NCBI GenBank assembly: GCA_021824565.1
Contig: JAKAKL010000110.1
Location: 1 to 64,000, forward strand
Reading direction: 5' to 3'
DNA: 64,000 nt
Source: Bacteroidota bacterium
Lineage (GTDB): Bacteria; Bacteroidota; Ignavibacteria; Ignavibacteriales; Ignavibacteriaceae
Part shown: piece after piece, positions 145 through 12,013 of the stretch
How positions within the stretch are numbered: the stretch's first letter is position 1
Layout: every line of letters starts with the position of its first letter
Notes under the pieces: model-generated
Databases searched by the model: none
Told to the model about the DNA's origin: nothing
Seen by the model: only the letters and a program-made list of their open reading frames with translations
Program-made: the position numbers and the translations under genes

Positions 145-588
145 TTACTGGACTTTTGCCGCAATAAAAGAAACTAGAAGCCCCACTAAAATTCCAAGAT
201 GAGTAGTCTCAATGTTTCCCATGCGGTCGTAAGCTACAAACAATTCGTCCATAATCATGAAGCCGCCGAAGAGAATAATACCGAAAGTAAACGGCGCAAG
301 AATTTTTTCATTCTTAAATTTTAAGTACGCATTGAAGAACAGCCAGCTTGTAATAGCTTCCCAAACAATTACAAAGAAAAATAAAATTGCATTAAGCCAC
401 GCAGCTAATAGATAAATTGAAGTAACGGCGCTTATGTATTGGAAATTCCCTGATACAAAGCGGAACCAGTCCGGCATTGCTCCAAGGTTTCTTAAAGCGT
501 CGAAAATATTTGTCAGCGATACAATTGTAAACCACAGCGCCCAGATTAATAAAATTATTTTCTTTAAAAGCTCATCAGAAAATTTCAT
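145..588 (-). CDS. Small multi-pass membrane protein of unknown function
   Basis: This 147-aa protein is almost entirely hydrophobic, with about four or five membrane segments (roughly residues 9-28, 51-88 as a pair, 95-116 and 129-145). I do not recognise a family or catalytic motif. It starts at an ATG preceded by an AAGGAG box about 11 bases upstream. It is the last gene of a minus-strand unit after the FAD oxidoreductase and the polyferredoxin, 26 bases behind the latter. That position suggests a membrane partner or anchor for their electron transfer, but this is inference only. Confidence 0.7.
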   Translation of the reverse strand: MKFSDELLKKIILLIWALWFTIVSLTNIFDALRNLGAMPDWFRFVSGNFQYISAVTSIYLLAAWLNAILFFFVIVWEAITSWLFFNAYLKFKNEKILAPFTFGIILFGGFMIMDELFVAYDRMGNIETTHLGILVGLLVSFIAAKVQ

Positions 589-614: not shown

Positions 615-1937
615 TTAATCTACTTGATTATATTTTCCTTCGCGCGGAAGATTTTCCAACTTCAAAACTCCCCGCGGGCAAACAGCAGCGCAAATTCCGC
701 ATCCGACGCAGGACGAGCGAATAATATTTTGTCCGCGCTGCGCATACGATTTTACATCAATTCCCATTTCACAATACGTTGAACAATTGCCGCACGATAT
801 GCATTGCCCGCCGTTTGTCGTAATTCTGAATCTTGAAAAATATTTTTGAAGCATTCCAAGCGTCGCAGCCATCGGACATCCAAAGCGGCACCAGACTCGG
901 CTTCCGAAGATCGGGTAAAATCCTACACCGATAATTCCCGAAAATAAAGCGCCGATAATAAATCCGTACCATTCGGCAAAACCTTGCGATACCGTTCCGA
1001 GAACTTTTCCGTTTGACGCGGAATTAATCCATAGCAAAGAAGTCGTAACGACAACGAAAATTAAAACCGAATGAATCGAAATTCTTTCAAGCTTCCATGC
1101 CTTTAAGGATTTATCGGAGTTTTGCCTGAACAGATCGCCGGCTGTTTCCGCAAGCCCGCCGCAACCGCAAACCCACGAACAATACCAGCGCTTTCCGAAG
1201 AAGTACGTAAGAACCGGAGTAGCAATTACGAACATTGCCGCTCCCCAAAAAATCATAAAGTAGCCTAGCGCTCCTCCGCTGGAAGTTAAATATTTTATTT
1301 CATCAGGAAAAAGATATTGAAATTTTAAAGGCCAGAAATAATTAAAATAAAATTCCGGTTTGTTTAAGCTTACAAGAATTCCGGGAATAATAAATGAAAA
1401 AGCCAATTGAAAAAAACTGACAGAAACAGATCTGATAATCTGGTAACGATTATGCCGGTACTTGGCAATCATTCTAATTGCCATAATTATAACTGCGGTA
1501 GTGTAAAAAGATCCGTATAAAAACCACCGGTCAGCCGCGGTGCCGCGCAGAGTATAGCTAAGCGGATTTACCAGGTTGACTAAATTCTGTAAAGTCTCCG
1601 GGAACCAATATAGTAAAACGTAAAACCCGGTCAGTACAATTCCTAAGAGCCATGCAATTGCCTTACGAGAAGTTAAAGCGTCAAAAAAGATTCTGTTATT
1701 TTTTATTCCCGCGGGCGCTTCTTTAATTTGAATTGTAAAATAAAAAATTGAACCCGCCGTTAAGAGTCCGAAGCTTAAGAAAAAAAACAGAAGAGTCTGC
1801 CGGTTCGAAACACCGGTAAGGCTAATCATGAAGAACAAAAAACCGATTCCTATCGTTGTTAAACCAAGCTTCTTTAAAAATTCCAAATTCTTATTATGGC
1901 CGTAAACTTTATAAGGTTCTATCTGAATTATATTCAT
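615..1937 (-). CDS. Membrane-bound 4Fe-4S polyferredoxin, NapH/NosR/CcoG-like
   Basis: The 440-aa protein has about six or seven transmembrane segments in its first 340 residues. It carries two cytoplasmic CxxxC(P/G)-type motifs (YCSWVCGCGG near 253 and WCRFGCPM near 348). Two classical 4Fe-4S clusters follow at the C-terminus (C379, C382, C385, C389 and C410, C413, C416, C420). This is the architecture of the NapH/NosR/CcoG membrane ferredoxins, which pass electrons between the quinone pool or a flavoprotein and an acceptor. It begins 8 bases after the upstream FAD oxidoreductase with AGGAAG just before the ATG, so the two are probably co-translated. The terminal acceptor is not evident: no nap, nos or cbb3 oxidase genes are adjacent. 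Confidence 0.85.
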   Translation of the reverse strand: MNIIQIEPYKVYGHNKNLEFLKKLGLTTIGIGFLFFMISLTGVSNRQTLLFFFLSFGLLTAGSIFYFTIQIKEAPAGIKNNRIFFDALTSRKAIAWLLGIVLTGFYVLLYWFPETLQNLVNLVNPLSYTLRGTAADRWFLYGSFYTTAVIIMAIRMIAKYRHNRYQIIRSVSVSFFQLAFSFIIPGILVSLNKPEFYFNYFWPLKFQYLFPDEIKYLTSSGGALGYFMIFWGAAMFVIATPVLTYFFGKRWYCSWVCGCGGLAETAGDLFRQNSDKSLKAWKLERISIHSVLIFVVVTTSLLWINSASNGKVLGTVSQGFAEWYGFIIGALFSGIIGVGFYPIFGSRVWCRFGCPMAATLGMLQKYFSRFRITTNGGQCISCGNCSTYCEMGIDVKSYAQRGQNIIRSSCVGCGICAAVCPRGVLKLENLPREGKYNQVD

Positions 1938-1945
1938 ACATCTTC

Positions 1946-3277
1946 CTATGAAAAAATACCTGATAACATTTTTCTATTTAATATTAATTTCTGTCCCGAA
2001 TTTTCTTTGTTAAACTTATCTATGATTTCCTGTTCGTGTTTTTTATAAAATTCCGGATCAAAATTAGCCGAGTGTAAATTTTCCAAAGCATATTCTATAG
2101 TCTTTTTTTCCTTTATCCAAGATTCAAAAAGCCTGTGCCGCAGACGGATTCCAAAAACATTTACGCCGACAACCGAACGGTCGTCTGATTTATAAACCAG
2201 CCTCAAACATATTTTCCCGGATGAATGTTCCCAGTAAAAATTTTCCTCGCCTGCACGCGGGGCGGCGCTAACAAAGCCGTAGGTTTGATATTCGATATCC
2301 AAAAACTTAGCGGAGTTGTACCAGATGCCTCGGTCATATTTTATTTTGTTCCCCAAAATATTTTGCGCAAGAATTTTTCCCTGCATTTTCCCGGTGTACC
2401 AAAGCTGCTCGACTTTATTTTTATCGCCTTCAATATTCGATTTTATTTCCGCACAATCGCCGGCGGCATAAACATCGCAGATATTGGTTTCTAAAAATTC
2501 ATTTACCAAAACACCTCTGCCGGTTTCTATCCCGGAATTTTTTACAAGATCAATATTAGGATGAACTCCCGGCGTCAATCCTACAAACTGACATGGCATT
2601 TCTTCTCCCTTTGATGTAACAACAGCGCGAGCTCTTCCTTTTTCATCCGCTAAAATTTCTTTCAGCTCAACGCCAAGTTTTAGTTCCATGTTATGTTCTA
2701 AAATATGGCGGCTTACCATTGCCGCTTCTTCATCCGGAAGAATGCTGTTCCAATAAAGTTTTTCTCTGACTAAAAACATCACATGAATACCGCGGGAGTG
2801 AAGCATTTCTGCAAGCTCAATTCCAATCAGCCCTCCGCCGACTATTACCGCGCTGCGAATATTTTTTGTGTTCTCTTCCAGCAGTTCCAAATCTTGTTTA
2901 GAATACAAGCCTTGCACGCCTTTTAAATCCTGCCCGCTCCATCCAAACTTATTTGAATGCGAGCCGGTCGCAATTACAAGTTTGTCGTAAGAAATTTCCT
3001 CTCCGTTATCGAGTAAAACTTTTTTTGAATCGGTGTTAATTGAAGTTGCTTTTGCAAAAATCAATTCCAGCCTGTTTTTTTTCCAGAACCAATCTTCGTA
3101 AGGCTTGATGTTTTCCCACTTCATGTGTCCCATGTAAACGTACATCAATGCGGTCCTTGAGAAAAAATATTTTGATTCATTAGAAATAATAGTAATGCGC
3201 ATGCCGCTTTGTTTGCGTACATAGCGCGCCGTGGTGATTCCGGTAATTCCATTACCGATAATAACAAGATGTTCCAT
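1946..3277 (-). CDS. FAD/NAD(P)-dependent oxidoreductase
   Basis: This 443-aa flavoprotein belongs to the pyridine nucleotide-disulfide oxidoreductase class II group (rubredoxin reductase or NirB N-terminal type). An N-terminal FAD-binding GxGxxG motif (IIGNGITGITTARYV) is followed by a central NAD(P)-binding motif (VIVGGGLIGIELAEML, near 145) and the second FAD motif YAAGDCAE (near 270). No redox-active CxxxxC disulfide is seen, so it more likely passes electrons to a partner protein. The obvious partner is the polyferredoxin encoded 8 bases downstream. It leads a three-gene unit, and a TTTACAG motif lies about 75 bases upstream of its start. Confidence 0.88.
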   Translation of the reverse strand: MEHLVIIGNGITGITTARYVRKQSGMRITIISNESKYFFSRTALMYVYMGHMKWENIKPYEDWFWKKNRLELIFAKATSINTDSKKVLLDNGEEISYDKLVIATGSHSNKFGWSGQDLKGVQGLYSKQDLELLEENTKNIRSAVIVGGGLIGIELAEMLHSRGIHVMFLVREKLYWNSILPDEEAAMVSRHILEHNMELKLGVELKEILADEKGRARAVVTSKGEEMPCQFVGLTPGVHPNIDLVKNSGIETGRGVLVNEFLETNICDVYAAGDCAEIKSNIEGDKNKVEQLWYTGKMQGKILAQNILGNKIKYDRGIWYNSAKFLDIEYQTYGFVSAAPRAGEENFYWEHSSGKICLRLVYKSDDRSVVGVNVFGIRLRHRLFESWIKEKKTIEYALENLHSANFDPEFYKKHEQEIIDKFNKENSGQKLILNRKMLSGIFS

Positions 3278-3350
3278 TCCGGCTCCTTGTTAGAAATTAT
3301 AAATTTTGTTTTACCAAGTTAAGAAACGAATCCGCTGAAAAATGTCGTGC

Positions 3351-3360
3351 TGTTTACAGA
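3351..3360. promoter_or_regulatory. TTTACAG half-site upstream of the FAD oxidoreductase
   Basis: TGTTTACAGA at 3351-3360 matches one arm of the perfect dyad at 7699-7718 that precedes the porin operon. It lies about 75 bp before the start of the oxidoreductase gene. The shared motif suggests one regulator for both units, but a heptamer match in AT-rich DNA is weak evidence. Confidence 0.3.
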
Positions 3361-3402
3361 TTAAAATTTATTTCCGCGAAAAAAATTTTTTAGATAAAGG
3401 AA

Positions 3403-4203
3403 TTAATATTTTCCTTTAATTCTTTCCTTAGCCGGAAGAACTTCGAGACAGGTTGTCCACCAGCCGGTTAAAATAGTTTCAATAAATTCCGGCGGAAGTT
3501 TTTCCCGCCTCATTTCTTCGGCTAATTTTTTATAGTCATATTCAACCGGAATATATTGAATATTTAATTTTTCATTTTCAATTTCTAAAAGAGTATAGCC
3601 GACAAAAGTGTTTCCATCATTCTCCGGTCTTCCTATGACGCCGGCGTTAACAAAAAATTTTTCTTTTAACTTTTCCTTATGAAAGAATTTTCTGTTCCAA
3701 TGAATTCCGGTATGAGTTGCGCAAATAATATCGGCATCAAAATCATTGCAGAGTTTTTCAAGAAAGTGAGTCGGCGTAGCAGTTTCCCATAAAAACTCAT
3801 TTGTCTTTCGAGGCGAGCCGTGGCAAAGCAGAACTTTGTAACCGCCAAATTCAAATTTTATTTCTTTAGGAAGTTCCTTCATCCATATTTTAAATTCTTC
3901 GGAAGTATTTTTATAAGTATAATCGTAGCTAAGCTTCGCAAAATAATTATCGCGCGGATCGGTATAGCCGCACTGGCAGTCATCAAGACCGTTGCCAATC
4001 GAGTTATCATAATTTCCCTGGACTACCTTTACTTTATATTTTTGAAGCAAAGGAAAAACTTTGTTCGGATTAGGACCGAATGCGCCGAGATCGCCAAGGC
4101 AAAATATTTCATCAGCGCCGCGCAGGTTAATGTCTTTCAAAGTTTCTTCAAGAGAAAGATAATTGCTGTACACGCCGCCGAACATCGCGACTCGTTCAGG
4201 CAT
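3403..4203 (-). CDS. Metallophosphoesterase-fold protein with a degenerate first metal motif
   Basis: This 266-aa protein has the calcineurin-like phosphoesterase fold of the YfcE/ApaH-related group. Visible motifs are LGDLGAFGP (residues 36-44), GNYDN (near 63), LCHGSP (near 126), a THTGIH block (near 163) and NAGVIGRP (near 187). The usual first motif, D-x-H-(G/S)-N, is here G-V-Y-S-N (residues 9-13), so the two ligands that normally hold the first metal are missing. It may bind one metal, bind other ligands, or act non-catalytically. Its ATG lies inside the last codons of the radical SAM gene (8-bp overlap), which argues for coupled translation and a shared task. Confidence 0.8.
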   Translation of the reverse strand: MPERVAMFGGVYSNYLSLEETLKDINLRGADEIFCLGDLGAFGPNPNKVFPLLQKYKVKVVQGNYDNSIGNGLDDCQCGYTDPRDNYFAKLSYDYTYKNTSEEFKIWMKELPKEIKFEFGGYKVLLCHGSPRKTNEFLWETATPTHFLEKLCNDFDADIICATHTGIHWNRKFFHKEKLKEKFFVNAGVIGRPENDGNTFVGYTLLEIENEKLNIQYIPVEYDYKKLAEEMRREKLPPEFIETILTGWWTTCLEVLPAKERIKGKY

Positions 4204-5086
4204 CTCTGCCCGCCGAACTAAAGTTTGAACAAATTGCGCCGAATAAATAGCAAGTGTAGCATGCCTGGTGCTTTAATTCATAAGCCGCCGAAGCCTCCTT
4301 CAAGGTGCCGCCGAGATTCGCGTCCGGCGAATCTATTAATATCGGGCAAACATAAACGCCTTTGCTTGTTGCTATCCTGCTGTTGGCGCAAATTAAATTA
4401 TTTATTTCATAATCAACTAACATCTGATCGGTAACATATTCAAATTCTTCGTAGCCCTTTGTCCGCGCCGCTTCTTTTCCAATTTTTATTGAAGGAAGGA
4501 TTTTCAATCTCGGTCTCGGATAGCCGTAAGATTTTAATGTGTTAATAAATCCATCGAGGACAATGCCGTCATCTTTATCTTCCCAGGTTTTTGTAATAGT
4601 GATGATCGGAAGAAAATTATTTTCCGCAAGAAGCTTTACACCAGCCATCGCTTTTTTGAAAACGCCTTTGCCGCGGATTGCGTCATTCATTTCTTCAGTG
4701 TAGCCGTCGATGCTTATCCTAATTTCAAGCGAATAAATTGATTCATCCGAAATCTTTTTTAATCTTTCAGCAGTATCCGGCTTGATCAGCATTCCGTTCG
4801 TTAAAATCGTTGCCGGACCAAATTGCATTGTTCTCCGGATTATCTGCAAAAGATTTTTATTCATGAATGGTTCGCCGCCGGTGAAGTAATATTCTTTCAC
4901 GCCAAGTTCGACAGACTCTTCAAGAAATTTATTAACATCTTCGTAAGTCATAAATTCAAAATTATGATTAACCGGACTGCAGCTTATAAAGCAATGCTCA
5001 CACTTAATATTGCATAGGGTTCCGCTTACCTGGAACCAGAGATTGTCAAGAGAGTCGAGATATATTTCCGGATATTTTTGATTCAA
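4196..5086 (-). CDS. Radical SAM enzyme with SPASM/twitch-like C-terminus
   Basis: The 296-aa protein carries the radical SAM cluster motif CNIKCEHC (C25, C29, C32) and the FTGGEP motif (near 68-73) that helps bind S-adenosylmethionine. Additional cysteines in the C-terminal third, in a GVYVCP block and a CYTCYLFGAIC block, resemble the auxiliary 4Fe-4S ligands of SPASM/twitch enzymes. Those enzymes usually modify peptides or sugars. The start is a TTG with GACGGA upstream. It lies 15 bases after the symporter gene and overlaps the phosphoesterase gene by 8 bp. The substrate is unknown, and I see no small precursor-peptide gene beside it. Confidence 0.85.
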   Translation of the reverse strand: MNQKYPEIYLDSLDNLWFQVSGTLCNIKCEHCFISCSPVNHNFEFMTYEDVNKFLEESVELGVKEYYFTGGEPFMNKNLLQIIRRTMQFGPATILTNGMLIKPDTAERLKKISDESIYSLEIRISIDGYTEEMNDAIRGKGVFKKAMAGVKLLAENNFLPIITITKTWEDKDDGIVLDGFINTLKSYGYPRPRLKILPSIKIGKEAARTKGYEEFEYVTDQMLVDYEINNLICANSRIATSKGVYVCPILIDSPDANLGGTLKEASAAYELKHQACYTCYLFGAICSNFSSAGRDA

Positions 5087-5101
5087 ATTAATTCCGTCAA
5101 A

Positions 5102-6475
5102 TTAATTTTCGGCTACACTAATAAAATTTTCTTTCTTGCTGAATAAGAAAGGTACAAAGTATAAAATAAAAATTATTACTGTTGCGTAAATATTTATTGC
5201 AAGCAAATCAGCAAAACTTCCTTCGCCTAAGTATAATGATTTCGGCAGCAAACCAAAAACGAGCACAGCACCAGCCGCAACTCCGGTCCAGAGCGCAAGA
5301 TGAAATGAAATTTTCGGCGCGGGAATTTTCCACAATAGAAATATGGGCGCAAGTCCCAGAACCATAGTTCCGCTTAACGTTGTAGCGGATAAAATGCTTG
5401 GCGAAAAAATCAACGGGATCGTGCCTCCAACGGCGGTTAAAATCATTGTGATTCTTCCTCTTGATATCGAAGTTTTGTCTTTACCGGTAAGATCAACAGC
5501 TATGAGCTTTGAAACGGAGGAAAAAGTTGAATCGATACAGGAAGAGGCGGATGTGACCATTATAAAATTCATAACAATAAGAGTGAACACTCCGAATGAT
5601 TTTGAAACTTCTACGGCAGCTTCTCCTTTTAGACCTGCAAAGCTTCCGTAAATTCCTACGAAGCTGAAAAGCATAATTATTATTGAGCTGACGACGGTGG
5701 CGGTAATATAACTTTTTAAAGTGGTTTTCGGATCTGATAAAAATCCGCGGTCAGTTAATATTGGATCGTGAAACGGATAACTGAAAATTTGAATCAGCGC
5801 GACAAGAATTAAATCAACTCCCCCGGACAATGTCCAGCTTCCAGTTTTAATGTAAGGCGTGATCGAACCGGTGCTTGGAATTATAAAACTTAAAACGACA
5901 AAAAGTAAAACAGCAAACAATCCCATTTGAATCAGGTCGGTAACCATCGAAGTTCTAAACCCGCCTTTAAGCGTGTATGCAAGTGTTAGTCCGGTGAAAA
6001 CAATTATTGATGCTATATACTGCGGTGAGCCGGTTGCTCCGAAATATGAACCTATTACTTCGGTGTTCGACCAAATTTCATTCAGCAGTCTTATTGCAAT
6101 TACAATTGTAAATGCTGCTACAGCGCTTCGTCCAAACTTCTTTTCTAAAAATTGGTGCAGACTTCCAACTTTAGATTTTGTTCTTATTTTATAAATAACT
6201 ATTCCCGCGACGAGAAATGATAAGTAATAAGTTGCGTAAGCAACACCTCCGACAAACCCGAACTGCATTCCAAGATTTGAAACGTTGGTAACGGACTTAG
6301 CAAAGATCCAGGAGATGACCAAACTGAATGTAAGCATTGCATAGCCCGGTTTTTCCAGCTGTCTTGACGCGCCTTTGAAAAAACTTTCTTTGCTTATTAC
6401 CCGCGGCGATATAAAATACAATAACGTGCTTGAAAATAATACTACTCCCCATTGCCAATATAAAACTGTCGACAT
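5102..6475 (-). CDS. Sodium:solute symporter (SSS family)
   Basis: This 457-aa integral membrane protein has about 12-13 hydrophobic segments and the sodium:solute symporter pattern, including AYTLKGGFRTSMVTDLIQ and SYPFHDPILTDRGFL in the middle. Members of the family couple sodium influx to uptake of sugars, amino acids, organic acids, urea or similar small solutes. The substrate cannot be read from the sequence. CCGGAG lies 9 bases before the ATG. It follows the porin gene by 15 bases and precedes the radical SAM gene, so it is likely the inner-membrane step of an uptake route whose solute is handled by the enzymes downstream. Confidence 0.88.
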   Translation of the reverse strand: MSTVLYWQWGVVLFSSTLLYFISPRVISKESFFKGASRQLEKPGYAMLTFSLVISWIFAKSVTNVSNLGMQFGFVGGVAYATYYLSFLVAGIVIYKIRTKSKVGSLHQFLEKKFGRSAVAAFTIVIAIRLLNEIWSNTEVIGSYFGATGSPQYIASIIVFTGLTLAYTLKGGFRTSMVTDLIQMGLFAVLLFVVLSFIIPSTGSITPYIKTGSWTLSGGVDLILVALIQIFSYPFHDPILTDRGFLSDPKTTLKSYITATVVSSIIIMLFSFVGIYGSFAGLKGEAAVEVSKSFGVFTLIVMNFIMVTSASSCIDSTFSSVSKLIAVDLTGKDKTSISRGRITMILTAVGGTIPLIFSPSILSATTLSGTMVLGLAPIFLLWKIPAPKISFHLALWTGVAAGAVLVFGLLPKSLYLGEGSFADLLAINIYATVIIFILYFVPFLFSKKENFISVAEN

Positions 6476-6490
6476 AAATTTTTTCTCCGG

Positions 6491-7627
6491 CTAAAATTTC
6501 AACTGAACTGTTGAGAGAATTTCGAATTCATCATTCCTGTTTGCCAATCTTGTAAAAGGCAAATCCGATTTTTGGTTTGCATTTTCATAAATTAAATTTA
6601 ACTGGAAGCAAAAGATTGTGTTGGCATACCAGTTTGTGCCGAGCAAATAACTATTTAATGAGGTCGGACCGGGAAAGTTCGGGATTGTTTTTCCGTAACG
6701 AGCTGTTTCAAATCTTCCGACAAATTGAACGCCGCCGGTGTTATTTCCGCATACAAAATAGCCTGCTTCTAAATATCCGCCGAGGAAATTTTTTATTTCA
6801 TTCGCCGATGATAGATCTTCATTAAAATTATATTGGAAAACTTCGCCGCGGAATAAATAAGGATTTTTATCGAACCAAAAATCTCCAAGGTAACCGAATC
6901 TTCGTCCGAACACATTAGCATTATTAAAGCTTTCAAAAGTATGATCAAGAAGGCTTAGCTGCTGGGATTCTTCTTTGGTGTAATCAGCGCTGGCGCCGAA
7001 TCCAAAATTTTGAGACGTTTTATATTCAAGCCTAACAGTTACATCTTTGCTGTTGTTATTTTCCGGTATGTTTTGAGCGGCTTAGCCATTTCCGTTTGTA
7101 ACGCTTAAATAATAATTTAAATTTGAAGCCGAACCAAAAAACATAATTCCAAATTGTGTATCAAGCGCTGGAAGCAAGAACATCGAATTCAATCCCGAAT
7201 ATCTTTCAATCGTGCTGAGCCCGCTGGTAGACCGGTTATTTTCCGGCGAGAAAGGATTTATAAATTTCCCGATTAGAATTTTATTATCGGCAAAAAGTTT
7301 TGCCTGGAGCTGAGCCAAAACCATTTGCGTTCTTTGTCCGGCAGCGTCAAACTCAAAAAATATTTCGTAATCGTTTAGATAATCGAAAGCAAAATCTGTG
7401 CGGGCGCGGTGAACATAGAATGAGCTTTGCACGGAATTATTTTGATCGACATTATGAAAAGAATAAATATTGTTAAGGTAGCCGGTGAACAAGAACTGCC
7501 AATCGTTTTTCGCGGAGTTCAAATGAAGTCCGCCTCCCGGGACATAAGTCAGCGTCTGACTTTTGCATAACCCGGGAAAAATTATTAAGCTAAGGATAAA
7601 AAGATTAATAAAAAGCTTTCCTTTCAA
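6491..7627 (-). pseudogene. Phosphate-selective-porin-like outer-membrane channel, interrupted by an in-frame TAA
   Basis: A 377-residue reading frame begins with a signal peptide (MKGKLFINLFILSLIIF...) and continues as an outer-membrane beta-barrel of the porin O/P type, ending in aromatic-rich strands and a terminal F. The frame is closed once, by TAA at 7082-7084, after NYYLSVTNGNG. Reading resumes in the same frame as AAQNIPENNNSKDV and runs to the normal end. No base needs to be inserted or deleted. Related porins usually have a Gln or similar residue here, so a CAA to TAA change is the simplest cause. The downstream half has only a GTG (6913) far inside conserved sequence, so it is not a separate gene. 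It heads the symporter/radical SAM unit. A sequencing error or a strain polymorphism is possible. Confidence 0.8.
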
Positions 7628-7744: not shown

Positions 7745-8137
7745 TTAATTATTTAATTCAGATTTTTTTAAACCGTCAATAATAGTTTGAATTCTTTGTG
7801 CGGTTGCTTCTGGATCAATGGGCTTAAGAATATAATCGGAAATGCCAAGACCAATTAATTCTTTAATAGTTTCTTTATCGTTATCGGAAGTTATGACAAG
7901 GACGGGAGTATTTTTAAATTTAATAGTCCTTCTAAGCTTGTGTAAAAATTCTTTTCCGTCCATTAAAGGCATAAAAAGATCAAGCAGGATAATATCAGGA
8001 TCAAATGCATGAATGACTTTTAGTCCTTCAAGACCGTTATTGGCTCTTTGGATTGAAAAATTAAATTTCTGTTTTATTACATGCTTTAAAATAGCGGCAA
8101 CTGTTTCGTTATCTTCTATTATTAAAATCTTGTACAT
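7745..8137 (-). CDS. Stand-alone response regulator receiver (CheY-like)
   Basis: The 130-aa protein is a single receiver domain without an output domain. The acidic pair E8-D9, the phospho-acceptor D53 (in LLDLFMP), T83 and K105 are all in the expected places, so it should be phosphorylatable. Its kinase and partner are not encoded next to it. The divergent neighbour is the large sensor kinase at 8298, but that one has its own NarL-type regulator. It may relay phosphate or act by protein contact. It reads away from the kinase and toward the porin operon across a 117-bp gap. Confidence 0.88.
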   Translation of the reverse strand: MYKILIIEDNETVAAILKHVIKQKFNFSIQRANNGLEGLKVIHAFDPDIILLDLFMPLMDGKEFLHKLRRTIKFKNTPVLVITSDNDKETIKELIGLGISDYILKPIDPEATAQRIQTIIDGLKKSELNN

Positions 8138-8297
8138 ATAAGATATACCTGATATTCTGCTTTACGAATATAAGAATTTTATTATAAACAAAATGTATGG
8201 ACAGAAAAAATTAAATTCTTAAATATATTTAGAGCATAAATTTCTTTTTGTCAATATTTTTTTGCAAATTTTATTATCAATACATGACGAAATTTTA

Positions 8298-11200
8298 ATG
8301 CGGTTAAAGTTTTTTATTATTACCTGCTGTATGCTCTTCTCCTGCTGTAATCTGGCTTTCTGCCAGATTTTTCCTCTTTTTAGTTATTCGTTAAGAGACG
8401 GACTTGTTTCGGATAATATTCAAGCGATTTGCCAGGATGCAATGGGATACCTTTGGATAGGCACCGGTGAAGGGCTTAGTGTTTTTGACAGCAAGCAGTT
8501 TCACAATTATTACACCACCGACGGATTATCTTCAAATAGTATTACAAGCATTTCGGCGGACAAAAAAAATCCCGGTTCGGTTTGGATTGGAACGGATCAA
8601 AACGGTGTCGATCTTTTTAGAAATGGAAAGTTCTTACACTTCGGACAATATCTCCCTTTAAGAATGAAAATTATAAATTCTGTTTATGCTGATTATAATG
8701 ACGATGTTTTTTGCGGTACCGACAGCGGCTTTTACATGATCCGCAACAATAATGTAAAATTAACAACCGCTCTAAAAATTGGATCGGTTTATTGTTTTGC
8801 ACAAACCTCCAGCGACAAAGTTTTAATCGGCGCTTCAAAAGGACTTTTTATATTTAACCCCGGGACAGGCAAAATAGAATCTGTTAATCTGCCCAATTTA
8901 AAACACGGTTCAATTCTGTCCATGATAACAGACAAGGATAAAATTATTTTTGCTTCTTCATCAAATGGGAAAATATATAGAATTAGCAGCGATGGTATTA
9001 AATACTATAATTTAAATTTTGCTCCAAGAACTATTGCCGAAGATGAAATAGGTAATTTGTGGCTAGGCGCCACGGACGGTTTATACAAACTAAATAAAAA
9101 TTTTTCCAGCAGAAGCTCACTTACAAAATTTACATCCGACAATGGATTAATCGAAAATAATATATCTGCGCTTTATCGTGATAGAGAAAATATTTTATGG
9201 ATCGGTACAAATGATAACGGAATTTCAAAGCTCACTTATCCAAATCTAATCAGATTTAAAATCCCTAAAAAATATAGCACGGCGAGTTGGTCTTCTTCAG
9301 CTTGCGACGTAAACGGTCACTTCTGGATTTCTCTTGCCGGCTATGCAATGGAAGTTTGGATGGATAAAGACGAATCTTGGCATAATTTTATTCACCCATT
9401 AAAAAAATATTATTCAAGAAACTATGCATACTTTTATTGCGCCAACAGCAATAAGCTTATCGTTACTAACCCTTCCGGATTGATTTTTATTTACGATATC
9501 ATTCAAAAAAATCCTCTTTCAGATACACCTTCACAAATGATTTTGAGAGAAAAAATTAATCTCTCGAACAAATACAAATTTTATGTAATTTATCAAACAT
9601 TAGAAGATGCAAACGGTTATTTGTGGTGCAGCGCTCTGGACCTCGGAGTTATTGTTCTCGATAATACTGCTAAGAGAAATGTAGTAAAAATTTATAGCAA
9701 AGCTGACGGGCTTCCCGATAATTCCGTGAGAGAAATTTATCAGGACCAGCAAGGCAATATTTGGCTCGGCGGTTATGACGGCGGGCTTTCTATGTTTTCG
9801 CACGGAAAAATTCTATCAGACATATTAAAAGAAAGATCTTCGGAGAAGAATTATATTATTCACTTTTCAACTGCCAACGGCTTGCCGGATAACGGCGTAA
9901 GATCAATAATTGAAAATGATTTAAATGAAATAATCATCGGAACAAGATACGGCGGCATTGCTATTTATAATAACGGTAAGATCAGCACCGTTACAAAAAC
10001 AAACGGTTTGATCAGCAATGCTATATGGAGCATGACTAAATCAGCTAAAGGAAATGTCTGGCTCGGCACCCAGTCTGGCATACAGGAATTAGATGAGAAC
10101 AATAAGCCGACTTATAAATTATTTGAAGGACTTCCTAAAGTACCGTATTATTCTATCTGCTCTGCCGCTGACGGAGATTTATGTTTTGCCAATCAAAGCG
10201 ATATATATATTTATCAACCTTTAAAAATAATTGATAGCAAAATTGGGTTGCCGATTTATATTAATCGTCTTTTAATTAATGGACAGCAAAGCAAGGTAGA
10301 GAACAACCTAACTCTCGACAATGGACAAAACACAATTACATTTGAATTTCTCGGCATCTTAAACCGTCAGCAAAAAGACTTAATCTATAAATACCGTCTC
10401 CTTGGCATTAGCAAAAACTGGAGCGAGTTGACAAACAAAAACTCCGTAACGTATGCGGCGCTGCGCCCGGGGATGTATTCATTTCAAGTAATGGCGATGA
10501 GCGGTAAATACCTGGTCAGTGAGCATCCTGCTGTAATAAATTTTATTATACAATCTCCTTTTTACTTTCAGCTATGGTTTATAATGCTCATGATAGTCTC
10601 TGCAGTTATAATTATCTTTTTCATTTCAAGAATCCGGATTAAACGCCAGCTTGAAATTGAAAAACTTAGGAATAAAATTGCCGCGGACTTGCACGACGAA
10701 ATTGGGTCGGGCTTAACAAAGATCGCAATCCTTTCCGAGAATGCTCTTCGCGAAACGCTTGCAAATTATCAGCCAAATGGAGATGGTCAAACAGATCCGG
10801 AAAAACTTTTTAAGAATAAATCGCTGGAAAGAGTCGGAAAAATTTCAAGAGCGCTTGTAGACTCGATGATCGACGTAATCTGGTCAATTGATCCTAAATA
10901 TGATTCGCTGCAGGATTTTGTTTCAAATTTTAAAACTTATGCTTATGAAGTTTGTGAAGCTAAGAATATTAAACTAATCGTCGAAACTTCGGGTATCCAA
11001 AACGTAAAAGCCAACGCTCAAACAAAAAGAAGCTTACAGTTAATTACCAAAGAAGCCTTGAACAATGCGCTTAAATATTCTGAGTGCCATACATTTAAAA
11101 TTTCCCTATCAATTATAAATAAATCTATAAATTTAATATTAGAAGATGACGGTATCGGATTCGATATTAATGCTTCAAGTAAAGGAAGAGGTCTATTTAA

Positions 11201-11300
11201 TATTTCAAAGCATGTCCGAGAACTGAACGGCAGCTTCAACATAAATTCAGACAAAGACGGAGGCACCAAACTGATAATCAAGTTTCCGGTTCTAAAATAA
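8298..11300 (+). CDS. Two-component sensor histidine kinase with periplasmic Reg_prop propeller and Y_Y_Y domain
   Basis: The protein is about 1000 aa. It begins with a signal-like segment (MRLKFFIITCCMLF) and continues with many propeller repeats (WIGT/WLGT...GL blocks, residues about 30-660), a Y_Y_Y domain (about 680-752) and one membrane helix (about 757-778). The kinase core is of the HisKA_3 (NarX/LytS-like) type, with H799 in ADLHDEIGSGLT, and a HATPase domain has the N-box near 920, DDGIG near 950 and KGRGLFNI near 966. I prefer the ATG at 8298, which opens the signal sequence, over a TTG 36 bases upstream. It should sense an extracytoplasmic ligand and phosphorylate the regulator encoded 68 bp downstream. 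Kinases of this build often control polysaccharide or surface-protein genes in Bacteroidota. Confidence 0.93.
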   Translation: MRLKFFIITCCMLFSCCNLAFCQIFPLFSYSLRDGLVSDNIQAICQDAMGYLWIGTGEGLSVFDSKQFHNYYTTDGLSSNSITSISADKKNPGSVWIGTDQNGVDLFRNGKFLHFGQYLPLRMKIINSVYADYNDDVFCGTDSGFYMIRNNNVKLTTALKIGSVYCFAQTSSDKVLIGASKGLFIFNPGTGKIESVNLPNLKHGSILSMITDKDKIIFASSSNGKIYRISSDGIKYYNLNFAPRTIAEDEIGNLWLGATDGLYKLNKNFSSRSSLTKFTSDNGLIENNISALYRDRENILWIGTNDNGISKLTYPNLIRFKIPKKYSTASWSSSACDVNGHFWISLAGYAMEVWMDKDESWHNFIHPLKKYYSRNYAYFYCANSNKLIVTNPSGLIFIYDIIQKNPLSDTPSQMILREKINLSNKYKFYVIYQTLEDANGYLWCSALDLGVIVLDNTAKRNVVKIYSKADGLPDNSVREIYQDQQGNIWLGGYDGGLSMFSHGKILSDILKERSSEKNYIIHFSTANGLPDNGVRSIIENDLNEIIIGTRYGGIAIYNNGKISTVTKTNGLISNAIWSMTKSAKGNVWLGTQSGIQELDENNKPTYKLFEGLPKVPYYSICSAADGDLCFANQSDIYIYQPLKIIDSKIGLPIYINRLLINGQQSKVENNLTLDNGQNTITFEFLGILNRQQKDLIYKYRLLGISKNWSELTNKNSVTYAALRPGMYSFQVMAMSGKYLVSEHPAVINFIIQSPFYFQLWFIMLMIVSAVIIIFFISRIRIKRQLEIEKLRNKIAADLHDEIGSGLTKIAILSENALRETLANYQPNGDGQTDPEKLFKNKSLERVGKISRALVDSMIDVIWSIDPKYDSLQDFVSNFKTYAYEVCEAKNIKLIVETSGIQNVKANAQTKRSLQLITKEALNNALKYSECHTFKISLSIINKSINLILEDDGIGFDINASSKGRGLFNISKHVRELNGSFNINSDKDGGTKLIIKFPVLK

Positions 11301-11368: not shown

Positions 11369-12013
11369 ATGAACGACAAAAATATTATACGAGTTGCTAT
11401 TTTAGATGACGACGACGAGTTCCGGGAAATTTTCTCTGAAATCTTAAACCGATCCGAAGGATTCTGTTGTATCGCTGTGTATCAAAATTGTGAAGAAGCT
11501 TTAAAAAATATTGAAAAAGATCTTCCGGATATTCTCTTACTCGATATAGAAATGCCAGTCAAATCAGGCATTGAGAGCCTAAGAGAAATTAAAGCCGCTT
11601 TCCCCGCTGTTGTAATTATGATGCTGACCGTTTACTGCGATAGTGAAAAAATTTTCCAATCGCTTCGCAGCGGAGCAGTAGGATATCTGTTGAAAAAAAG
11701 CCCTACTGAAAAATTGCTTGATGCAATTCAAGAAGCCTATCACGGAGGCGCTCCATTCTCCGGCGAAGTTGCAAAAAAGGTGCTCCAATATTTCCAGATG
11801 CCGGTAATTCAAGTAAGTTCTGCTTTATTATCAGACAGAGAGAAAGAAGTTTTGAATTTATTAATCGAAGGACACGGCACCAAAGCGATTGCCGAAAAAC
11901 TTTTTGTTTCATTGCATACAGTAAGATTTCATCTACATAATATTTATAATAAGCTTCATGTAAGTTCAAGAGCAGAAGCAATAGCTAAAGCAATAAAAAA
12001 TAGAATAATCTAA
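11369..12013 (+). CDS. NarL/LuxR-family response regulator
   Basis: The 214-aa protein has a receiver domain (acidic cluster D13-D16, phospho-acceptor D59 in LLLDIEMP, and a lysine in YLLKKSP). A LuxR-type helix-turn-helix follows at about residues 148-210 (LSDREKEVLNLL, then TVRFHLHNIYNKL). It is the obvious partner of the HisKA_3-type kinase just upstream, since NarX/LytS-like kinases usually pair with NarL-type regulators. A 20-bp dyad overlaps the -35 of its own promoter and those of two downstream cargo genes. That fits the usual binding of these regulators to short inverted repeats. The direct link to the dyads is inferred. Confidence 0.93.
   Translation: MNDKNIIRVAILDDDDEFREIFSEILNRSEGFCCIAVYQNCEEALKNIEKDLPDILLLDIEMPVKSGIESLREIKAAFPAVVIMMLTVYCDSEKIFQSLRSGAVGYLLKKSPTEKLLDAIQEAYHGGAPFSGEVAKKVLQYFQMPVIQVSSALLSDREKEVLNLLIEGHGTKAIAEKLFVSLHTVRFHLHNIYNKLHVSSRAEAIAKAIKNRII

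Follow-up and report, generated by a model that had tools for sequence, protein, structure and literature searches.

The operon and its genes

The window analysed here is a stretch of 64,000 nucleotides from a Bacteroidota bacterium of the family Ignavibacteriaceae. It opens with a run of seven minus-strand genes (7627 to 145; Table 1), whose core consists of a radical SAM protein (rSAM) and a calcineurin-like phosphoesterase with an altered metal site (MPE). The operon is probably part of an undescribed organoarsenic branch, because the rSAM-MPE pair of other genomes is usually found among organoarsenic genes. Loci, genomes and contigs are cited below by L, G and C numbers.

An earlier, sequence-only reading took these genes for a dedicated operon, and their layout agrees with this. 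The porin is separated from the sodium/solute symporter (SSS) by 15 bp and the SSS from rSAM by another 15 bp, rSAM and MPE overlap by 8 bp, MPE lies 125 bp from the FAD oxidoreductase, and the latter lies 8 bp from the polyferredoxin (PFD). Contig C103 begins with the first base of the window, and the 3' flank of the operon past 145 is cut by the contig end.

Table 1. Genes of the operon in the window
Gene	Position	Strand	Remarks
Radical SAM protein (rSAM)	4196..5086	-	296 aa, TTG start; core gene
Calcineurin-like phosphoesterase (MPE)	3403..4203	-	266 aa; core gene
Divergent SSS-type sodium/solute symporter	5102..6475	-	457 aa; in the same four genomes as rSAM
Porin_O_P-type outer-membrane porin	6491..7627	-	interrupted by TAA 7082-7084
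FAD/NAD(P) oxidoreductase, Pyr_redox_2, NirB/PadH-like	1946..3277	-	443 aa; accessory
NapH-like membrane 4Fe-4S polyferredoxin (PFD)	615..1937	-	440 aa; accessory
Membrane protein	145..588	-	147 aa; follows the polyferredoxin in L008 too (73%)

The family matches are Radical_SAM for rSAM, Metallophos_2 for MPE, Pyr_redox_2 for the FAD protein and NapH-like 4Fe-4S for PFD. The transporters are more divergent: the porin matches Porin_O_P weakly and in its C-terminal half only, and the SSS reaches 33.7 bits to TIGR00813 (cut-off 184), its sole sequence match among solved structures being a weak one to the SLC5A7 choline transporter. The porin frame is broken by a single premature TAA (7084-7082), before and after which the halves share the frame. 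As the L015 orthologue (73% identity) is uninterrupted, the stop codon here is either a lesion of recent date or an error in the sequence. Regulators adjoin the operon, namely a response regulator (7745-8137), a two-component sensor of 1012 aa that has propeller-like repeats (8262-11300) and a LuxR-type gene (11369-12013).

The radical SAM protein and its phosphoesterase partner

The rSAM is a member of the radical SAM superfamily by its PF04055 match (67 bits), its invariant cysteines and its fold matches. The CX3CX2C motif is formed by C25, C29 and C32, the core cysteines being present in 58-59 rows of the alignment, with R at 32 in one row. The C-terminal region is a shortened SPASM/Twitch-like tail, in which cysteines 233, 247, 276, 279 and 286 are invariant (57/57 rows covering them). 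The predicted model has a mean confidence (pLDDT) of 83 with a poorly modelled tail, and its best fold matches are BlsE, a cytosylglucuronate decarboxylase, and SkfB.

Two bacterial radical SAM routes to carbon-arsenic (C-As) bonds are known, ArsS and ArsL (review PMC12159101). The rSAM scores 59.9 bits against the ArsS profile TIGR04167, whose curated cut-off is 300. BLASTP against ArsL (P. amygdali WP_054068372) gave a best segment of 24 bits (E 0.005) outside the core, and a match of only 20 bits at the cysteine motif. Both assignments were rejected on the profile score and BLAST, and by its sequence the rSAM belongs to neither of the known C-As-forming families. The sequence-only reading had recognised no named pathway, and the rSAM indeed stands outside any named family, with ArsS, ArsL and NF049973 all below cut-off or without useful similarity.

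The MPE has the calcineurin-like fold (PF12850; Foldseek TM-score 0.75 to 3qfm), and its AlphaFold2 model (pLDDT 89.9) has SapH/Spr1479 as the nearest solved fold. It lacks a full dinuclear metal site (D, H, D, N, H, H, H). The metal-1 ligands are replaced by G10, Y12 and G166 in all rows covering these positions, and the metal-2 ligands D38, N64, H128 and H164 are retained, invariant in at least 52 rows. For example, in the alignment to 3rqz, SDVHAN corresponds to GGVYSN and GHTH to THTG. The enzyme is thus altered, as suspected from the sequence alone. Cysteines C76, C78 and C252 are likewise invariant.

Sister MPEs (175-190 bits) of Acidobacteriota genomes without rSAM keep SDIHGN and GHTH intact, have the CxC motif and lack the C-terminal WWTTCLE tail. 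Hence, the loss of metal site 1 and the gain of the tail accompany the partnership with rSAM. One canonical sister, in the Acidobacteriota locus L199, is separated by ~4 kb from a fragment of an ArsM-like methyltransferase (91 bits; 1-490 and 4808-5545).

Conservation and spread of the gene set

Among 59 relatives, rSAM is found in four genomes of one genus (G000, G005, G006 and G009), and SSS is present in exactly these four (hypergeometric p ~2e-6). The conserved co-occurrence on which the sequence-only reading staked its unit thus holds within the genus for SSS-rSAM-MPE, and between phyla for rSAM-MPE. It does not extend to the porin (2/4 Ignavibacteria loci) or FAD-PFD (3/4), and no common solute-binding protein is conserved in the gene maps. 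FAD-PFD was rejected as a fixed part, since it is lost in L009 and replaced by a different FAD family in other phyla. A C-terminal PFD remnant, 83% identical, remains in L009 downstream of rSAM-MPE (11771-11938), which suggests that FAD-PFD was once present there and then lost.

Beyond the genus the distribution is patchy. A sample of 395 Bacteroidota genomes has rSAM in G000 only; the counts are 7/40 in Calditrichota, 28/396 in Acidobacteriota and 16/82 in the phylum of G071, and further carriers are one Planctomycetia, one Elusimicrobia and one unclassified metagenome-assembled genome. The rSAM+MPE core spans six or more phyla (Acidobacteriota, Calditrichota, a KSB1/Caldithrix-like phylum, Planctomycetota, Elusimicrobiota and Ignavibacteria), with rSAM identities between phyla of ~50-72%. 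In the rSAM tree the four Ignavibacteria rows stand beside Calditrichota in a well-supported set of 13 (100/98), and the path from the window to L010 is 0.54 changes per column. The tree placement together with the patchy distribution suggests horizontal transfer of the rSAM-MPE module.

The pairing itself is close to obligate. A profile scan found MPE beside rSAM in 44/48 loci, and three others (L170, L173 and L187) run into a contig end; for L173, the remaining part of rSAM and MPE sit on contig C127 of the same genome. Wherever it could be judged, the two genes are adjacent or have only ArsM or PiT between them, except in L174, a distant outlier and the only profile-scanned locus with room yet no MPE. 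In Acidobacteriota the genome sets of rSAM and MPE agree 27/28 each way (Fisher p ~1.5e-39), and in G517, seemingly MPE-only, the rSAM lies next door with its frame interrupted by masked letters. In L174 (2913-4645), the distant rSAM paralogue (209 bits) adjoins ArsM and may represent another arsenic rSAM family.

Arsenic genes around the pair

Neighbours were counted within 6 kb of rSAM in 58 loci with profiles built for this analysis. ArsM is present in 24/58, against ~0.15 expected by chance if there is about one gene per 5-Mb genome. Other neighbours are a recurring FAD protein (37/58) of a different family from that of the window, TIGR04282-type (15/58) and TIGR04169-type (7/58) proteins, and PHO4 (6/58). 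At least one of ArsM, TIGR04169 and TIGR04282 is found in 34/58 loci, and none of the counted neighbours, the FAD protein and PHO4 included, in 12 unrelated rSAM loci, three of which are only 3.4 kb long.

Several gene orders recur: FAD-rSAM-ArsM-MPE (L016, L175, L177, L181, L182), rSAM-MPE-PHO4-ArsM-AhpD-FAD (L178, L179, L183), ArsM-rSAM-MPE-FAD (L152, L156, L157), and glycosyltransferase-FAD-rSAM-(PHO4)-MPE-ArsM (L012, L014). In L176 (8119-10323) the FAD oxidoreductase and rSAM are fused in a single open frame. The four catalytic cysteine positions of ArsM are retained in 25/25 rows. The ArsMs of the L016 group score 342-376 bits to NF040538 (arsinothricin ArsM), under the cut-off of 500, and those of the L012/L014 group ~202 bits to PRK11873. 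The AhpD-like proteins of L183/L185 exceed the TIGR04169 cut-off (126-128 vs 120 bits), and the glycosyltransferases of L013/L014 score 111-115 bits to TIGR04282 (cut-off 134). ArsS was not found in 13 cross-phylum rSAM genomes.

A few observations stand apart from these counts. In L184, L185 and L186 the rSAM-MPE-AhpD(-FAD) run continues with a gene that resembles glycerol-3-phosphate dehydrogenase (by eye); common arsenosugars have glycerol as their aglycone. Mercury-resistance-like genes (MerR/MerT/MerA, by eye) lie near the rSAM unit in two phyla (L015, 1133-3837; L022, 15977-18473). A plasmid search with the cluster ArsM returned arsQML and staphylococcal ars regions in which this rSAM is not annotated, the unannotated Cupriavidus L190 being left out. 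The ArsM of staphylococcal plasmids L191 and L192 (both 6007-7062) is ~53-54% identical to the cluster ArsM; next to it are genes for ArsR and for a permease, and others for a recombinase or for transposition lie near.

The window and arsenic

Taken over all loci, the rSAM-MPE family is very probably linked to arsenic, and it is likely, with less assurance and on indirect grounds, that this link holds for the window. The bridge is L015, a genus relative in which the same operon continues into a TIGR04283-TIGR04282 fusion that passes both cut-offs (TIGR04282, 206 vs 134 bits). The ArsS-bearing arsenosugar clusters L052 and L053, from the same taxonomic order, carry the same fusion (51-55%). Ahead of it they encode a protein of 826 aa that resembles the L015 polyferredoxin in its C-terminal half (~30-32% identity) and has a FAD domain of another, YpdA-like kind in its N-terminal half. 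L052 and L015 also have in common a YHS protein and a membrane protein of 144 aa (55-58%). The window and L008 share the polyferredoxin followed by the 147-aa membrane protein, and L008 has no glycosyltransferase nearby. A genome search found ArsS in seven relatives and rSAM in none of those seven. The four rSAM-positive and seven ArsS-positive genomes are disjoint among 13 TIGR04282-positive genomes (p ~0.02), the sets being different genera; this does no more than suggest that rSAM replaces ArsS among the relatives.

Several findings weigh against an arsenic role. The arsenic context is visible in other genomes only: ArsM, TIGR04282, TIGR04283 and TIGR04169 neighbours occur in many loci of other phyla and in L015, and in the window, L008 and L009 the unit adjoins neither ArsM nor any other arsenic gene. 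G000 has a single full ArsM, on a different contig (C130), and 51/59 relatives have one; the TIGR04282 copies of G000, G005 and G009 are elsewhere, in an unrelated-looking sugar cluster. Among the 58 loci, 24 have no ArsM, TIGR04169 or TIGR04282 within 6 kb, including the whole Acidobacteria clade L167-L172. The names of TIGR04282, TIGR04283 and TIGR04169 rest on association, not on assay. Binding of trivalent arsenic by C76/C78/C252 of MPE is only an idea, and the CxC motif is no proof of it because the canonical sisters have CxC.

Alternative explanations

The strongest alternative is that rSAM and MPE modify some nucleotide, sugar or phospho-compound independently of arsenic, the arsenic genes co-residing in metal-resistance or secondary-metabolite islands. 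The bare neighbourhood of the window would fit, as would L167-L172, L018, L019 and L021, which have no marker at all, the BlsE fold match and the mercury-type genes near L015 and L022. It is unlikely, however, given that ArsM occurs far above chance, often between or right beside rSAM and MPE on the same strand, and that several distinct arsenic-linked families recur in three phyla.

Rather improbable is a catabolic or salvage role, in which porin and SSS import an organoarsenical (or an arsenocholine/betaine-like solute) for degradation by rSAM and MPE. The uptake-type transporters are confined to the Ignavibacteria version, and the SSS has its one weak match to a choline transporter; but the ArsM, glycosyltransferases and PHO4 permeases of other-phylum clusters form a biosynthetic set, and no ArsI-type C-As lyase was noticed.

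We give still less weight to MPE as a non-catalytic scaffold or regulator with VPS29-like loss of the metal centre, leaving the chemistry to rSAM alone. The metal-1 ligands are all gone in every full-length member and the Pyrococcus relatives 1nnw/2gju also lack the DxH motif, yet a pure scaffold would have no need of four invariant metal-2 ligands. A SPASM-like maturase of a ribosomally synthesized and post-translationally modified peptide, in line with top fold and profile matches to SkfB, SuiB, EpeE and other peptide maturases, was rejected as very improbable: no precursor peptide, which the earlier reading had proposed looking for, was found in the four Ignavibacteria loci, whose small open reading frames show no cross-match, the 15-bp gaps or overlap leave no space for one, and the gene beside rSAM codes for a phosphoesterase instead of a peptidase or exporter.

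Proposed pathway

The favoured reading, for which we see about an even prospect, is that the operon is the Ignavibacteria version of an rSAM+MPE module that spread horizontally and serves organoarsenic biosynthesis by an undescribed pathway. Its rSAM would stand in for ArsS or ArsL, and the pair most likely acts as these enzymes do, without membership of either family. That the rSAM forms a C-As bond is proposed tentatively, and so is the wider notion of a third class of C-As bond-forming rSAM acting with a one-metal phosphoesterase towards a so far undescribed organoarsenical across six or more phyla.

That the enzymes of the window act on arsenic is our inference, and so are the following chemistry, its sequence and the transport roles. 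Inorganic arsenic would undergo reduction, followed by methylation where there is an ArsM. Next, the rSAM would attach a SAM-derived radical fragment to trivalent arsenic, the candidates being the 5'-deoxyadenosyl group used by ArsS and the aminocarboxypropyl group used by ArsL. The MPE, with one metal site left, may bind or trim the nucleotide or phospho part of the product, FAD proteins may hold arsenic trivalent or feed electrons, and glycosyltransferases would finish the product in clusters having them. In this genome, porin and SSS symporter would move the substrate or product, and the FAD protein and polyferredoxin would supply reducing power, perhaps to rSAM itself as the sequence-only reading guessed.

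If this is true, the arsenic cycle known from biology would be enlarged by a third C-As route, with a reach over Acidobacteriota, Calditrichota and further lineages, and would offer an arsenical natural product and a radical chemistry that are both new. The MPE, which has invariably kept only half of its metal site, poses a clean mechanistic question in its own right.

Comparison with known systems

The rSAM-MPE pair was not found in the openly available literature on arsenosugar, radical SAM and phosphoesterase clusters. The ArsS arsenosugar cluster resembles it in the CX3CX2C motif, in the FAD-polyferredoxin neighbours and, for many loci of other phyla and for L015, in the neighbours TIGR04282, TIGR04283, TIGR04169 and ArsM. 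It differs in that the rSAM of the pair falls far from TIGR04167 (60 bits, cut-off 300) and has the modified phosphoesterase as its near-obligate partner, and in that ArsS is absent from the rSAM genomes tested. The ArsQML arsinothricin cluster (PMC8552651) likewise pairs a radical SAM enzyme with ArsM, and the L016-group ArsMs score best to its NF040538 family. However, ArsL (428 aa; 424 in the P. amygdali copy) has no useful similarity to the rSAM of the pair, whose clusters lack ArsQ and hold MPE, PHO4 and the FAD protein instead.

For the single proteins, the Rv1681 family (NF049973) is the best NCBIfam match of the rSAM core at 104 bits, although this is far under the cut-off of 380 and confined to the core. 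SapH/Spr1479 (3qfm), an asymmetric Ap4A hydrolase and phosphodiesterase, and 3rqz share the fold of MPE (TM-score 0.75 to 3qfm), whereas the MPE has its DxH and GHTH metal-1 ligands replaced and carries an extra C-terminal WWTTCLExLPxKER tail.

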